From NCBI GenBank assembly GCA_016938675.1, contig JAFGUF010000022.1, forward strand, positions 1 through 64,000: DNA of 64,000 nucleotides, in the 5' to 3' direction. Position 1 is the first letter of the stretch, and each line of letters begins with the position of its first letter. The position numbers and the translations under genes are program-made. Shown piece by piece: positions 5,183-10,311 of this stretch. The notes beneath the pieces are model-generated. The model did not search any database. It was not told the origin of the DNA and saw nothing but the letters and a program-made list of their open reading frames with translations. The DNA is from Clostridia bacterium (GTDB lineage Bacteria; Bacillota; Clostridia; Christensenellales; UMGS416).

Positions 5183-5614
5183 ATGACAAAAACAGAGCAG
5201 GCTAAGCATTGCTTCAGCCAGGGTTTCAATTGCGCACAGGCAGTAATAGGAGTATTCAGCCAAAGTCTTGGCATTGACAAAGACACAGCTATGAAGCTCT
5301 CTACCGGCCTTGGAAGCGGCCTGAGATGCGGTGAAGTATGCGGAGCTGTAACTGGCGCTGCAATAGTTATTGGCCTTAAATACGGCCACGGCAGAGAAAT
5401 AGATGAAGAATCAAAAAAGAAAACTCACGCTTTATTAGTGGAATTTGAAAAAAGATTTGCAGAAGAAAACGGCAGCATTGTATGCAAAGATATACTGACA
5501 TATGATTTGTCCAATGAAGAAGAATTGAAAATCATTAAGGAGAAAAACCTTTTTGAGACAATATGCCCGGATATAGTCGAGAGTGCCGTTGAGATTTTAG
5601 ATGAGATACTTTAA
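5183..5614 (+). CDS. C_GCAxxG_C_C family redox-active protein
   Basis: Small (143 aa) cysteine-rich protein of the C_GCAxxG_C_C family. Conserved cysteines are at about 17 (FNCAQAV), 49 and 53 (LRCGEVCGA), in VCKDIL near 101 and in ICPDIV near 129. The glycine-rich part GLGSGLRCGEVCGAVTGAAI is the family signature. Members occur in anaerobes, often beside redox enzymes, and may bind metal or an Fe-S centre; no reaction is established. AAGGAGAGGTAT precedes the ATG. It stands alone, 126 bp after the peptidase, and that gap holds a 7-bp inverted repeat (5083-5124). Confidence 0.85.
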   Translation: MTKTEQAKHCFSQGFNCAQAVIGVFSQSLGIDKDTAMKLSTGLGSGLRCGEVCGAVTGAAIVIGLKYGHGREIDEESKKKTHALLVEFEKRFAEENGSIVCKDILTYDLSNEEELKIIKEKNLFETICPDIVESAVEILDEIL

Positions 5615-5676
5615 AGAATAGATTTATATTGCCTTAAGTATAATTCCTTAAATTACATAAATCTTGGATAAAAAAT

Positions 5677-6108
5677 CTACACATTCTCCTCATTCAGGCT
5701 CTTGTTCCTGTAAATAAGGTCTTGCCTAGTGGTGAAGCCCTGACTTTCCCAAAAACCGTTACCCAATTCATTGGTATGATATACGATGAGGGCTGCTTTA
5801 TGTATGCCCTCTTTTTGCATTGCTTCCATTGCCGCATTCAGCAATGCTTTGCCAATGCCCTTACCACGATATTCAGGCTTTACCATCGCGTGATATATGT
5901 ATCCCCGCCTCCCGTCATGTCCGCAGAGTATGCTGCCCGTGATTTGTTCCGCATCGCATGATACAAAGCAGGAAGTAGGATTCCTATCCAGAAATTTATC
6001 TATGCCCTCGCGTGAGTCATCTAGGCTGCGCAGGCCCACGCCCGCCTGAGCCGTCCACATTGAGTAAACATCTTCATAGTCAGTTATTGTCATTAAACGT
6101 ATATTCAT
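5677..6108 (-). CDS. GNAT family N-acetyltransferase
   Basis: Single-domain acetyltransferase (143 aa) that would transfer an acetyl group from acetyl-CoA to an amine; the substrate is unknown. The acetyl-CoA pyrophosphate loop is present as RGKGIGKAL (about 81-89), after the typical beta-4 strand YIYHAMVKPEY, and NELGNGFWESQGF matches the C-terminal motif B. It is the last gene of the long minus-strand operon and follows the AlkZ-related gene by 12 bp. GGAAGGGATAT gives a good ribosome binding site. Confidence 0.87.
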   Translation of the reverse strand: MNIRLMTITDYEDVYSMWTAQAGVGLRSLDDSREGIDKFLDRNPTSCFVSCDAEQITGSILCGHDGRRGYIYHAMVKPEYRGKGIGKALLNAAMEAMQKEGIHKAALIVYHTNELGNGFWESQGFTTRQDLIYRNKSLNEENV

Positions 6109-6120
6109 ATATCCCTTCCA

Positions 6121-6807
6121 TCAGCCGTAAATGAATTTTTGTATTTTCTTTGCTTCCGCATTTGGATTTAGCCTCAATATTTGATCCTCAATTTTCTTTG
6201 CACATTCGCTGGGATCGTTGCTTTTAGCTTCTTTTGCCTGTTTTTCACCTAATGCATATTCTGACGTCTCAAATGTAGTTGCTGGCCATCCATAGGGCAT
6301 GCCATCGTTTGATATTTTTAGTGTTTCTCCGCTTACAGTAATAAACATCCCCATCTGCAGCCTAGTAACAGCTGAGTTGAATCTTGACTTGTTTTGTTTA
6401 TCTATACCAAGCATCTCCTTTACCTTATCAAGCGAGATAGACGGATTTCCACATATAATATTGTAGATGTCCTTCTCAAAGCGAGTCATTTTTCCTTCAG
6501 CATATTTTTCGTCAAATGTCCTGCCATGCCTTCTGACTGAATAAAAAAGCGTGTACCATTCTTTTGTTATATAACCACCTTTATTAAAGAAAAATTTGCC
6601 GTACATTATATCATCTCTTTGATTAACGCTTAGCATACACCATGCCCAGGGATCTGTTTCAGTCAATCCGGTATGCCACCTAATTTCGGGGCTAAAATAC
6701 TCTGCAAGAGTAAATATGCCTTCGCTGTTATCGCCCGCAAGCGTGAAACCGGCCATAAGAATATTTTCAACAAAATCATCATAACAATTAATAGTACTTA
6801 AATTCAT
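6121..6807 (-). CDS. AlkZ-related protein (winged-helix, DNA glycosylase superfamily)
   Basis: A 228-aa soluble protein that resembles the short AlkZ-related proteins of Firmicutes. Typical parts are an N-terminal motif W-H-T-G-x-x-x-x-D-P-W-A-W (about 44-56), a KGGYITKEWYTLFYSVRRHG segment and a helix-turn-helix-like stretch near 115-155 that starts SISLDKVKEML. AlkZ enzymes excise interstrand crosslinks or alkylated bases, but these short relatives have not been shown to be glycosylases and the catalytic QxQ motif of AlkZ was not identified. It lies 31 bp after the small membrane gene at 6839-7195. The Shine-Dalgarno (AAAGGTAG) is rather far from the ATG. Confidence 0.55.
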   Translation of the reverse strand: MNLSTINCYDDFVENILMAGFTLAGDNSEGIFTLAEYFSPEIRWHTGLTETDPWAWCMLSVNQRDDIMYGKFFFNKGGYITKEWYTLFYSVRRHGRTFDEKYAEGKMTRFEKDIYNIICGNPSISLDKVKEMLGIDKQNKSRFNSAVTRLQMGMFITVSGETLKISNDGMPYGWPATTFETSEYALGEKQAKEAKSNDPSECAKKIEDQILRLNPNAEAKKIQKFIYG

Positions 6808-6838
6808 TAGTTAATTCTACCTTTATTAAAAATCTGTT

Positions 6839-7195
6839 TCAACGGAAGATTAAAAGCCCAGCACCATATGAAGCGGCATTAAGAATAAGAGAAACAAGCA
6901 ATGCCCTGCCCGCTTTAATCCCAGTAAGCTTTGAAAATATCAGCCCTTCGATAATAACAACGGCCGCCTCCAAAAAGTAAAGGAGCCCATAGTAACCGTT
7001 ATATCCCATATACGAAAAGTACATAAGCATAATGAAATTGAGCAGCGGATTCGTTAGCACATTCAAAAGCAGTACATAGTAAACATAGCTGCCCTTTCTG
7101 AATAACAAGAATACAATCCCGCATTCAATAATAATGGTGATTAAAAGAGGTTTGAGCAGAAAGAGCAGTAATGTAATAATAATGTTGCCCGTCAT
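6839..7195 (-). CDS. Small polytopic membrane protein, unknown function
   Basis: 118-aa, very hydrophobic protein with about four membrane helices (near 5-32, 38-62, 66-86 and 95-116). The NVLTNPLLNF motif in helix 2, and a Glu inside helix 3 (FLEAAVVIIEG), stand out as polar features buried in membrane segments. I do not recognise the family. Its ATG overlaps the stop codon of the preceding microprotein (TAATG), which implies translational coupling. It closes the run of small membrane proteins downstream of the MFS gene, so it probably belongs to the same membrane function. Confidence 0.7.
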   Translation of the reverse strand: MTGNIIITLLLFLLKPLLITIIIECGIVFLLFRKGSYVYYVLLLNVLTNPLLNFIMLMYFSYMGYNGYYGLLYFLEAAVVIIEGLIFSKLTGIKAGRALLVSLILNAASYGAGLLIFR

Positions 7196-7371
7196 TATTT
7201 ATTCTTTTTGCTTTTCTTTGCCTTCACTATCAGCTTAATTACTATAAGCACCGCAAGAACAATCAGCACGCCTATTATAATGTATCCCAATATCCATGGT
7301 GTGCTTGTAACTGCAGAGCTGCTTTCTCTTGCAGTTTCTAACGGTGCCTCAACAAGGTCTAAAATACACAT
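7195..7371 (-). CDS. Microprotein 5 of the cluster: single-TM, 58 aa
   Basis: Short gene read directly from the reverse strand. The protein starts MCILDLVEAPLETAR, has one membrane helix at about 27-48 (WILGYIIIGVLIVLAVLIVI) and ends in a lysine-rich tail (KAKKSKKNK). By the positive-inside rule, the tail would be cytoplasmic and the N-terminus outside. A good AAGGGGAT lies about ten bases upstream of ATG, and the stop overlaps the next start as TAATG. The frame is open only on this strand, and the architecture matches the four preceding microproteins, which supports it as a real gene. Function unknown. Confidence 0.72.
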   Translation of the reverse strand: MCILDLVEAPLETARESSSAVTSTPWILGYIIIGVLIVLAVLIVIKLIVKAKKSKKNK

Positions 7372-7416
7372 AAGTTTCTTATCCCCTTTTTAATTTTCTC
7401 ATATACTATAAAAATA

Positions 7417-7623
7417 CTATTCTTTATAATTTGGAGTTTTGTGTTCATCTTTTTTCTTCTTAAGTGCTCTTTTTATAAGCACAGTGGAAATAATTATAAA
7501 TCCTGCAATCAGCGCTGCAAAAAAAAGCACTTCAATAGCAGCGAGAACAAAATGCCTCATCTCCGCCTCTGGACTGACGGGATTTAAAAAAAGTGCGAAT
7601 GCAGCTGCTTGGTTATTTTTCAT
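7417..7623 (-). CDS. Microprotein 4 of the cluster: single-TM, 68 aa
   Basis: Begins MKNNQAAAFALFLNPVSPEA, has one long hydrophobic helix at about 23-46 and a strongly basic tail (KRALKKKKDEHK). The frame extends upstream to another ATG at 7677, but the start chosen here has GACGGA at the right distance and overlaps the previous gene by 11 bases, in keeping with the close packing of the cluster. Predicted topology is N-out, C-in. No recognised family. A 45-bp gap with its own ribosome binding site separates it from microprotein 5. Confidence 0.68.
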   Translation of the reverse strand: MKNNQAAAFALFLNPVSPEAEMRHFVLAAIEVLFFAALIAGFIIISTVLIKRALKKKKDEHKTPNYKE

Positions 7624-7810
7624 TTTCATTTCCGTCTTTATTTGATTCTTCAGTGATAGTTCCATGTTTTTTATCATAAGATTTTCTGAACCTGTTTATT
7701 GCAAAAAGTATCAGTCCTATTATGCCCATAAATACGACTATAAACACAAGTGCAGATATCCCCAGCATCATTGGCGGCGGCGCAATATCTAATAACATTA
7801 TTATATTCAT
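7613..7810 (-). CDS. Microprotein 3 of the cluster: single-TM, 65 aa
   Basis: Starts MNIIMLLDIAPPPMML, followed by a hydrophobic segment to about residue 38 and a charged tail (NRFRKSYDKKHG) that becomes acidic at its end. The DxAPxPxMM-like N-terminus resembles that of microprotein 1 (DAAPTPEMM), which suggests duplication. AGGTGA lies just upstream of the ATG, 13 bases after the stop of microprotein 2. The architecture recalls the gamma chain of sodium-pump decarboxylases, but no decarboxylase genes are nearby. Confidence 0.7.
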   Translation of the reverse strand: MNIIMLLDIAPPPMMLGISALVFIVVFMGIIGLILFAINRFRKSYDKKHGTITEESNKDGNENEK

Positions 7811-7823
7811 TCATTCACCTCAT

Positions 7824-7991
7824 CTAATCCAGCTTTTCAAGTTTCTCGATGGTATGCTTATTCTTTTTTCGCTGCCTGAAAAATGCGGCTATCGGCAATA
7901 CAAAAATACAAATCCCTGCAAGATTAAATATTACCATCCCAGCCGCAAGCAGAATTTTTTCAATGATAGTAATATCACCTAGCTCATTCAT
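7824..7991 (-). CDS. Microprotein 2 of the cluster: single-TM, 55 aa
   Basis: Read from the reverse strand: MNELGDITIIEKILLAAG start, one hydrophobic helix at about 13-38 and a basic C-terminal stretch (RQRKKNKHTIEKLEK). The ATG lies inside the last codons of microprotein 1 (8-base overlap), so translation is probably coupled. This is the shortest member. It has no proline motif at the N-terminus, unlike microproteins 1, 3 and 4. Function unknown; reality rests on the overlap pattern, hydrophobic plus basic-tail design and shared context. Confidence 0.65.
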   Translation of the reverse strand: MNELGDITIIEKILLAAGMVIFNLAGICIFVLPIAAFFRQRKKNKHTIEKLEKLD

Positions 7992-8163
7992 TCTGTTTTT
8001 TGTTCTCCTTCGCTGCCTTCTTCTTCCTTATGGCTTTTGCAATAAGAATTATTGAAACGGCGATAATAGCACAAAGCACTATAACTGCGCCCATTGATAT
8101 GCCTATAATCGCCATCATTTCAGGCGTCGGTGCAGCATCAAAGTGTGTGTAAAAATTAAGCAT
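7984..8163 (-). CDS. Microprotein 1 of the cluster: single-TM, 59 aa
   Basis: Starts MLNFYTHFDAAPTPEMM, with one helix at about 18-44 and a lysine-rich tail (KAIRKKKAAKENKK). The ATG overlaps the end of the MFS gene by 8 bases, with GGAGG seven bases before it, so it is almost certainly translated together with the transporter. Predicted topology: short N-terminus outside, basic tail inside. The design is like OadG-type gamma subunits that hold larger partners at the membrane; that is analogy only. Confidence 0.72.
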   Translation of the reverse strand: MLNFYTHFDAAPTPEMMAIIGISMGAVIVLCAIIAVSIILIAKAIRKKKAAKENKKQNE

Positions 8164-9205
8164 TTTGAGCCTCCTTGTTTTCCTTCATTTTTCCCCTGCC
8201 CTTGGTTACAGTCAGTATGCAAAGAGCCGATACTATTATCGAGCATATTATAACATATTTCGAGGCTGCAGTACCAATAGCTAATACATAAGTTACGAAT
8301 GTCCCTAGCAGCAAAGACAGCGTAGTAAGCCCGAACGCAAGGCCCTCATAGCCCTCCAGATATTCAGCCAAAACGCACAATGTCACCGGCATTGTCATAT
8401 TGAAAAGGAATATCCCCAGAATACACAGATATATATTACTATTGAAAAATGCAAGCAGCGGCAGGGAAAGAACCAATGCACCTACTCCCGTAAGCCTTGC
8501 ACCAAATTTATCAGCAATAAATCCACCGCTAAATTTCCCAAGAAATGAAGCTCCCGTTGCCAGAATAATTAGCCCCGTTGTTGTCTTCCATTCCATTGGT
8601 ATGGTGAATCCGGTATGTGCCCTAATAGCTACAGAAATACATATTAGCCCAATAGCTGCAGCAGGAATTATTTTCTTTGAAGCGGCACTAAATTCTGATT
8701 TTTCAAGATTGATACTTGTGCTGCAAAAAATATATATAAGCACTCCTGATACCGCTAAAAAAAACATGGGATATAATATTGATATCTCTGCTTTGCCTGC
8801 AAATGTGCCAAGCAATACTCCCCATGAACCGGATGAGACAAAGATACCGCTTCTGGACATTTTCCCTTTAGCATTTAGCAGACTGTCTATTCCGCCTCCT
8901 ACATGGAAAAATGCATTTCCGAGCGCAATCAGCACTACAGCAAGATATATCTGCTGCGCAAAAGCAAGACCCACAATCGTAATTACTACTCCTATCAGCC
9001 CTGCAGGAACATATCTTTTCATATCGCAGATATAGCCTACTATAAACTGCAGCCCAAACGCTACAGTATTGTATACAAGAAACCAGAAGGCCAGCTGCTG
9101 CAGATTTTCTACTCCTGCTGAAAGAGTGGAAAACAGCACGTAAAAACACGCGAAGTCCACAGCAAAATGCGCAAACGTGTAAACGGACAATGAACGTGTA
9201 TGCAT
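8156..9205 (-). CDS. MFS transporter
   Basis: Major facilitator superfamily permease (349 aa, about 11-12 helices), slightly shorter than usual. It has GYICDMKRYVPAG in the position of the cytoplasmic loop 2-3 motif and GGFIADKFGARLTGVG for the equivalent loop of the second half. The substrate cannot be read from sequence. AAGGAG lies six bases upstream of the ATG. It is followed without gap by the run of microproteins and preceded by two PH-like membrane proteins, so its partners may be these small proteins. Confidence 0.85.
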   Translation of the reverse strand: MHTRSLSVYTFAHFAVDFACFYVLFSTLSAGVENLQQLAFWFLVYNTVAFGLQFIVGYICDMKRYVPAGLIGVVITIVGLAFAQQIYLAVVLIALGNAFFHVGGGIDSLLNAKGKMSRSGIFVSSGSWGVLLGTFAGKAEISILYPMFFLAVSGVLIYIFCSTSINLEKSEFSAASKKIIPAAAIGLICISVAIRAHTGFTIPMEWKTTTGLIILATGASFLGKFSGGFIADKFGARLTGVGALVLSLPLLAFFNSNIYLCILGIFLFNMTMPVTLCVLAEYLEGYEGLAFGLTTLSLLLGTFVTYVLAIGTAASKYVIICSIIVSALCILTVTKGRGKMKENKEAQNA

Positions 9206-9215
9206 AGATAACTCC

Positions 9216-9788
9216 TTAATATATGTCTTCCTTTATTTCTTTGCCCCAATAATCTTTTATCAGATGCAATTCAACATCAGAACATAAAATAAAAAATCCG
9301 CCTGATAGTTTTGTTTTGTGTTTTTCAATCTTGTGGGTAAATCGATCTTTTTTGTTGATACCTTTATAAAACTGCTCTTTATCTGCAATTATTACGAGCA
9401 TAGGAACTTCTATGCCTCTCAACTTATCTATAATTGAAGCCTGGCTTTCAATCTCTATATGAATAATTTTACTCCATTTGAATTCATTCTCAATTATTAC
9501 CCCGTCTATATCATCATATACTTTTATACTGTTCTCATCAAATTCGTGCATCTGGTTACGGCTTATTAGCTTAGTTAAGCCAAAATACCCCAAGAAACTC
9601 AGACTACCGAGCATAAAAAACCAAAAAACAATGATGGCCAGCATCATGAAAACGATTCCTTGCTCTTTGTTAATATTAATCAAGTAAATTATGAAAAGCG
9701 TTGCAAACAGCATCGCTCCAACTAGCAAAAATATCTTCCCCGTTTCTATTTTTTTTCTTATTTTCTCTGTAATTGAATCAGTTCTCAT
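9216..9788 (-). CDS. Two-TM membrane protein with PH-like (YcxB-type) domain, copy 2
   Basis: 190-aa protein with two close membrane helices (about 17-40 and 46-72 of the chosen frame) and a soluble C-terminal domain that includes a FKWSKIIHIEIESQ strand pattern, typical of YcxB-like/PH-like domains fused to a TM hairpin. The frame stays open to 9836, but GGAGGG followed by AAAGT and ATG supports 9788, which overlaps the upstream gene by 11 bases. The layout equals that of the preceding gene (9778-10311), so the two are probably ancient tandem duplicates. No function is known. Confidence 0.6.
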   Translation of the reverse strand: MRTDSITEKIRKKIETGKIFLLVGAMLFATLFIIYLININKEQGIVFMMLAIIVFWFFMLGSLSFLGYFGLTKLISRNQMHEFDENSIKVYDDIDGVIIENEFKWSKIIHIEIESQASIIDKLRGIEVPMLVIIADKEQFYKGINKKDRFTHKIEKHKTKLSGGFFILCSDVELHLIKDYWGKEIKEDIY

Positions 9789-10311
9789 ACTTTCCCTCCA
9801 ATGCCAGCTTATACTCGCCGATAATTTCCTTTTCATAATACTTTTTTAGTTCTCTATAAAATTCAGGATAGTATTCAACATATAGAAACTTTCCATCTAT
9901 TTTTTTTATGTTCAGTCCATTCATCGTGTATTCGCTGCATTGCTGCTTTGTAAGAGATCTTTCAAAAATATATATCATCCTGATTTGCCCTGCAAGACCT
10001 AAATATATCAAGCCAACATCTGACCATTTCATTTCAATTTCTTTTTTAGGACCGTTGAACAGCATCCCTTCTTCCTTCAAAGTTATTCTATACCGGTCAC
10101 CTGAGTAGGTGAAAACAGAAATATATATAACAGCAGCTAATAAGAACGATAACCCTCCAAAAGCATATGACAGTATGATCATATCTTCTCTTTCTATATC
10201 AGGAACTAAAATCACTAATACAAGCCAAATGCTCATAAAAAATGCTGGTAGAATTAGGGGCGTTAAGTACCTATTAACTTTATTCTTAGGTCTAAAAATA
10301 GTGAATTCCAT
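9778..10311 (-). CDS. Two-TM membrane protein with PH-like (YcxB-type) domain, copy 1
   Basis: 177 aa. Two hydrophobic helices (about 15-37 and 45-68) are followed by a soluble domain beginning DRYRITLKEEGMLFNGPKKE, then MKWSDVGLIYLG; this beta-strand pattern and the conserved KWSD-type motif are seen in YcxB-like PH domains. GGAGAG lies seven bases upstream of ATG. It is the first gene of the long minus-strand operon that runs down to 5677. Function unknown. Confidence 0.6.
   Translation of the reverse strand: MEFTIFRPKNKVNRYLTPLILPAFFMSIWLVLVILVPDIEREDMIILSYAFGGLSFLLAAVIYISVFTYSGDRYRITLKEEGMLFNGPKKEIEMKWSDVGLIYLGLAGQIRMIYIFERSLTKQQCSEYTMNGLNIKKIDGKFLYVEYYPEFYRELKKYYEKEIIGEYKLALEGKYEN

Follow-up and report, generated by a model that had tools for sequence, protein, structure and literature searches.

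In the window (the whole 64,000-nt stretch of DNA analyzed here), five consecutive genes for single-helix microproteins of 55–68 aa (m1–m5) lie between the genes for an MFS transporter (MFS) and a 118-aa four-TM protein (P115), which raises the question of what such an array is for (Table 1). The preliminary description of this DNA had offered three answers, namely a multi-subunit accessory assembly, membrane-active peptides with their exporter, and OadG-like anchors.

Gene layout and coding evidence

The five small minus-strand ORFs reported earlier were confirmed in their coordinates, lengths, and junctions. Their reported anatomy also held, since each of m1–m5 has one hydrophobic helix (weakest in m2) preceded by 0–2 and followed by 6–8 Lys/Arg residues, and by the positive-inside rule they are predicted to be N-out/C-in. 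The alignment z-scores of m1 were about 6 with m3 and m4 and 4.6 with m5, while m2 showed no clear kinship. The 118-aa gene counted earlier as part of the chain is present, but its role as the constant partner of the transporter had been missed.

Table 1 Features of the operon in the window.
Feature	Position	Strand	Description
Gene B	9778-10311	minus	177 aa, two TMs; upstream in operon
Gene A	9216-9836	minus	206 aa, two N-terminal TMs; upstream in operon
MFS gene	8156-9205	minus	349 aa, family without a name; motifs GNxxxHxGxG and IFLFNMTMPxTL
m1	7984-8163	minus	59 aa; tag DAAPTP after F, then TM, basic tail; 8-nt overlap with MFS
m2	7824-7991	minus	55 aa; D is residue 6, no Pro behind, non-canonical; 8-nt overlap with m1
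m3	7613-7810	minus	65 aa; tag DIAPPP after L, then TM, basic tail; 13-nt gap to m2
m4	7417-7623	minus	68 aa; Asn tag form NPVSP after L, then TM, basic tail; overlaps m3
m4, alternative start	ATG at 7677, upstream	minus	86 aa product
m5	7195-7371	minus	58 aa; tag DLVEAP after L, then TM, basic tail; 45-nt gap before
P115	6839-7195	minus	118 aa, four-TM; shares 1 nt with m5 (TAATG)
AlkZ-related and GNAT genes	5677-6807	minus	AlkZ-related protein (PF24741, E 3e-59) and GNAT acetyltransferase; after P115, short gaps

The gene order of the operon is B, A, MFS, m1–m5, P115, AlkZ-related, and GNAT, and the last two genes may be co-transcribed with P115. Counts in a promoter and terminator scan were not above those in shuffled sequence, so the operon limits were taken from gene spacing. 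No structured RNA was found across the region.

To judge coding capacity, codon-usage log-odds per codon were compared with those of 114 ORFs of similar size in wrong frames of long genes (mean -0.10, 95th percentile 0.091, maximum 0.122; median of real genes 0.14). The scores of m1 (0.247), m3 (0.176), m4 (0.143; 0.133 with the short start), and m5 (0.208) exceeded all 114 controls. m2 (0.092) is borderline because its score sits at the 95th percentile of the controls. Shine-Dalgarno-like matches of 7 nt precede m1 and m3, and those before m2 and m5 are 5 nt and 4 nt long, respectively. Thus, m1–m5 are real, coding-like ORFs, m2 being borderline.

The MFS was absent from all seven other sampled genomes of the host's family. 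A dN/dS check, proposed earlier for relatives of the array, was run on the equivalent microproteins of related loci. The two pairs with measurable divergence showed purifying selection, strongly in L058/L059 (w = 0.066; 0.043 for the MFS of the same pair) and also in L052/L055 (w = 0.195, with dS near saturation). The signal was weak in L014/L017 (w = 0.55, few changes) and L048/L049 (w = 0.42, dS saturated).

Constant pairing of the MFS transporter with P115

Even at E 5, the window MFS gave no match to any model of Pfam or NCBIfam, whereas the MFS_1 profile matched 9 of 16 relatives (best 1e-9). Sequence searches with the window protein alone or with the family profile returned no solved relative. 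On the other hand, the best Foldseek matches of its AF2 model (pLDDT 85) were MFS transporters (E about 1e-6, probability 1.00), the nearest solved folds being YajR, VMAT, and NorA (TM-score about 0.6–0.75). The protein therefore shares its predicted fold with known MFS transporters but differs from them in lacking a profile match, in its constant pairing with P115, and in the two motifs given in Table 1, which are near-invariant across the family alignment. One scan gave 17 relatives with 27–37% identity from Clostridia, Christensenella, Oscillospiraceae, archaeal MAGs, and a 'Peribacteria' MAG. A check for carriage on mobile elements gave no plasmid or phage match for the MFS. The 'Peribacteria' MAG gene (L006:252-1301) contains four in-frame TGA codons, read as Gly under code 25, and is readable only so; its contig is likely from a Gracilibacteria-type lineage. 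At another locus (L047; G337 C3, about 264-266 kb), the MFS is broken by several stops, and the adjoining tagged microprotein and P115 are intact.

P115 was detected at each of the 39 loci collected through MFS matches (the window counted twice). Among 391 sampled genomes of the class, 20 have the MFS, and P115 was present in 20 of these 20 and in 32 of the 371 without it. The pairing of the MFS with P115 is thus constant, and MFS–P115 loci occur in Bacillota, in a code-25 bacterium, and in archaea, with MAGs as the source of both the archaeal and the 'Peribacteria' loci.

P115 has no significant match in Pfam or NCBIfam, no Foldseek match below E 1, and no solved relative by profile search. 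It is confidently predicted to be a four-helix bundle (pLDDT 93); a second structural comparison gave bundle-type similarities only (best Z 8.1, within the range for unrelated helical bundles). Each of its four helices carries spaced polar residues that together form the signature T20xxxE24, N45xxT48, E76x6E83, and N106xxS109xxxG113. When TM1-2 was compared with TM3-4, Glu24/Glu83 and Asn45/Asn106 fell in register, the repeat not being significant (E 0.18). A 168-aa protein elsewhere (L103:7579-8085), with a signal peptide, the mature start NSSWHW, and two TxxxE / NxxS hairpins resembling P115 halves, may be a more distant relative.

Eleven other loci each have a single microprotein between the MFS and P115. 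A tree of 36 MFS proteins placed the window MFS together with L048, L049, L057, L058, and L059 (support 96/97), all of which have one signal-peptide-less tagged microprotein at this site (in L048 the Asp is present with no Pro nearby), whose start in most of them lies in the final bases of the MFS gene. Therefore, the layout MFS–microprotein–P115 is conserved at clade level. The gene order that the preliminary description wished to see conserved recurs to this extent, but the five-member set does not: no relative was found to have the same five microproteins, and the window is the only clade member found with five. Loci with several partners also occur elsewhere: downstream of P115, L018 has at least three tagged ORFs, and three are present in L010.

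On contig C26, the same genome has a second cluster, B'-A'-P115', whose genes align with B, A, and P115 at z-scores of 14, 22, and 13, respectively. The three paralogous two-TM pairs are at window 9216-10311, G000:C26 (L095 4636-6134), and G000:C21 (L116 3892-5051), and a P115 gene follows two of the three, the C21 pair being without it. A gene B paralogue showed a weak YcxB-like match. The C26 cluster points to a B-A-P115 unit, one version of which would include the MFS and microproteins, and these arrangements suggest that A/B pairs also occur alone.

The Asp-Pro tag of the partner proteins

Nearly every MFS–P115 locus also has at least one membrane protein with the tag D-[VAIL]-x(0-3)-P. 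The tag stands exactly at signal-peptidase position +1 in larger surface proteins and near the start in signal-peptide-less single-TM microproteins. The larger partners (190–480 aa, with SH3-like, CBM2, SLH, or TPM domains) have a signal peptide ending in AxA or xxG, followed by D-[VAIL]-x-x-P, as in DVIWEP, DAIAPP, DIVGP, and DLVFEP; the tags of larger partners in archaeal loci are DIPPLP and DAAPYP. The small partners (50–85 aa), often without a signal peptide, have 3–14 residues, hydrophobic immediately before the Asp, and then the tag, helix, and basic tail. Their starts include MILDVVNP, MNMIICDVVTP, MTFFTLHPLDVAPEP, MLTSLLTLTLLDAGGP, and SCLCDVAPP. The starts of m1 (HFDAAPTP), m3 (LLDIAPPP), and m5 (ILDLVEAP) fit the tag, that of m4 (FLNPVSP) is its Asn form, and that of m2 (LGDITIIE) does not fit. 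The common anatomy described earlier (short N-terminus, helix, and basic tail) was thus correct as far as it went, but this Asp-x(0-3)-Pro tag had been overlooked. At L052, L055, and L056, a LemA-like protein and a TPM-domain protein are encoded upstream of the MFS, and the mature start of the latter, DIPAP after Ala, fits the tag.

Enrichment of the tag was measured against a background of locus flanks and the window, with gene calls and signal-peptide sites from simple scripts. With a motif partly defined on the tested loci, relatives that are not independent, and p values that ignore relatedness, a predicted +1 Asp was found in 15 of 22 signal-peptide proteins beside MFS–P115 versus 6 of 77 elsewhere (p = 3e-8; four of these six are further module partners), and D[VAILM]x(0-3)P in 14 of 16 single-TM microproteins beside MFS–P115 versus 4 of 23 elsewhere (p 2e-5). 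None of 188 background genes has the strict tag (hydrophobic-D-[VAIL]-x(0-3)-P in the first 18 residues), which three of the five window microproteins carry. In signal-peptide partners, Asp stands exactly at +1, which suggests that a free Asp end is important for these proteins. P115 itself is unlikely to be a protease freeing the Asp, since a site for signal peptidase I is already present at that position in most tagged partners.

The window has a family MFS with P115 nearby and tagged neighbors (m1, m3, and m5), which is the composition that defines the module. Its array is an expanded case of a widespread module of MFS, P115, and tagged partners that has no name, and the module as such is well supported.

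A reciprocal search with P115 found many MFS-less genomes in which it forms the C-terminal part of a 240–320 aa protein, arranged as signal peptide, DMGPKPS, DVGPKPS, NSAEPPS, or NAAEPPS, soluble domain, and P115. T20, E24, N45, T48, E76, E83, N106, and S109 are kept in 12 of 12 aligned fused P115 domains. A phylum-wide draw and newly read loci added 21 fused proteins with a readable start, all with Asp/Asn directly after the signal peptide, these 21 representing only two or three subfamilies and not 21 independent cases. Fusion of parts that elsewhere are neighbors is a standard sign of interaction. Because the tag and P115 are fused here and are neighbors elsewhere, the tagged protein appears to be tied to P115 and not to the MFS, and because the fusions occur without that MFS, the MFS is not obligatory. 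At L101, a free P115 gene is followed by a short interval in which two small ORFs lie on the opposite strand, and then by a gene for a secreted dockerin protein (5273-7168) whose start, NPVPIGG, is the Asn tag form, like that of m4.

Proposed docking of tagged partners and alternative explanations

We propose that m1–m5 are tagged N-out/C-in accessory subunits that dock on an MFS–P115 core, a reading to which we give a probability of about 0.5, its docking, topology, and transport role being inferred. The membrane module would have three parts: the MFS, P115 as a four-TM adaptor, and partners bearing an Asp/Asn-x(0-4)-Pro tag on the outer side of the membrane. P115, with the MFS, would hold the tag through its conserved polar residues; this is proposed because the constant parts carry invariant polar residues, while the variable parts share an outer Asp/Asn-then-Pro end. 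Holding the tag would fix the partner proteins to the MFS, where they may tune or couple the transporter in the role of accessory or sensor subunits. The large partners would contribute domains that bind the wall or a ligand, whereas the microproteins would be the minimal partner (tag, helix, and basic tail) serving as regulatory subunits. In the window lineage, the single microprotein slot would have become five, of which three are Asp-tagged, one has the Asn form, and one is untagged.

Small single-pass proteins such as AcrZ, MgtS, and MntS bind and tune transporters (PMC10710835), and the structure of AcrZ-AcrB has been reported (PMC7267776). Like m1–m5, they have one helix and a comparable size and are each associated with one transporter, and they suggest a plausible mode of action for the microproteins, whose tie to a transporter here is genomic linkage. 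However, the AcrZ-type proteins named in that review act singly on an RND, PiT, P-type ATPase, or MntP transporter (PMC10710835), whereas m1–m5 are five in one operon, are accompanied by an MFS and by another constant membrane protein, and share an Asp-Pro tag at the outer face.

In favor of docking, we counted the pairing, the tag enrichment, the fusions, the clade layout, the predicted bundle fold of P115, and the known transporter-tuning small proteins. We counted against it that m2 has no proper tag and m4 has Asn, that P115-tag fusions occur without this MFS, that two microprotein pairs gave weak selection signals, that the tag statistics have the limits given above, and that many loci have only large tagged proteins, so that the function may lie there and not in transporter tuning. 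Of the three earlier answers, the multi-subunit accessory assembly fared best, with microproteins between the MFS and P115 in 11 other loci, and the earlier interpretation as a whole is supported in part.

A broader extension, on which we place somewhat less weight than on docking in the window, is that an Asp/Asn-x(1-4)-Pro mature end serves as a general code for the docking or sorting of extracytoplasmic and single-pass membrane proteins, a code that would be read by P115, either with a dedicated MFS or fused to its own tag, in Bacillota, candidate-phyla bacteria, and archaea. The window would then be the extreme case, with partners cut down to tag, helix, and tail and multiplied five-fold.

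The main rival to docking is modification of the Asp end. The MFS and P115 might process or modify the exposed Asp/Asn end, for instance with a group carried out by the MFS, the microproteins being substrates. Asp lies exactly at signal-peptidase +1 in diverse partners, the invariant polar set of P115 could be catalytic, and the constant parts are membrane proteins while the variable parts are surface proteins. A precedent exists in lipoprotein maturation, in which a signal peptidase and acyl transferases act on an N-terminal Cys; there too, surface proteins are marked for membrane-embedded machinery by a conserved residue at mature position +1. Unlike that system, the module has Asp/Asn at +1, cleavage resembles that by signal peptidase I, and there is no known modification. 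Moreover, the fused proteins unite the tag with P115 in a single chain and are found where the MFS is absent, and the signal-peptide-less microproteins would need an extra cut between Leu, Cys, or Phe and Asp, which is unusual for signal peptidase I. We regard modification as unlikely, though it deserves more attention than the remaining alternatives.

That some of m1–m5 are untranslated, as chance ORFs or decaying leftovers of duplication, is quite improbable. m2 combines a borderline codon score with the lack of a tag, and the host's close relatives have no MFS and hence provide no selection figure for m1–m5. Against this stand the codon scores of the other four, which beat every control ORF, the ribosome binding sites and tight overlaps, and the occurrence of the strict tag in three of the five but in no background gene.

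Slightly less probable still is a multi-peptide operon for membrane-active bacteriocins, in which secreted or membrane-inserting peptides would be accompanied by the MFS as exporter and P115 as immunity protein. The microproteins are small, hydrophobic, cationic-tailed, and partly paralogous (z up to 6), they lie beside a transporter and a small polytopic protein, and m1, m4, and m5 gave very weak matches to the putative bacteriocin YxzE. However, sister loci pair the same tag, transporter, and P115 with 190–480 aa SH3-like, CBM2, SLH, or TPM surface proteins, purifying selection is strong in a relative (w 0.066), and the module spans bacteria and archaea. The earlier option of membrane-active peptides with their exporter is thus disfavored.

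The OadG-like gamma anchors of a sodium-pumping decarboxylase (OAD_gamma, PF04277) share the size, topology (short outer N-terminus and one helix), and basic tail of m1–m5, but we reject this last option almost completely, as the weak match of m1 (E 0.0074) reached 17.4 bits against a curated cut-off of 27, m2–m5 gave no OAD_gamma match, the operon has no decarboxylase, OadA, or OadB gene, and the partners in every relative are the MFS and P115.

The window microproteins had no significant match in Pfam, NCBIfam, or PADLOC. An anti-phage defense system was also considered and dropped, as PADLOC gave no match for m1–m5, P115, the MFS, the AlkZ-related protein, or two fused P115 proteins. In the literature, DMGPKP, DVIWEP, NSAEPPS, and FNMTMP were not found, and wider literature searches likewise gave no specific lead; most subscription journals lie outside the coverage of this search, and a description under another name is possible.

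P115 has no family match, yet it occurs in 52 of the 391 sampled genomes of the class (about 13%), and the full module reaches archaeal MAGs. Point mutation of the invariant polar residues of P115 or of the single Asp of the tag can test the proposed docking directly. Should the tag prove to be a signal for docking or sorting, it would constitute a code carried on protein ends, similar in kind to the signals of lipoproteins or sortase substrates, and many unannotated small membrane proteins would gain a testable partner.
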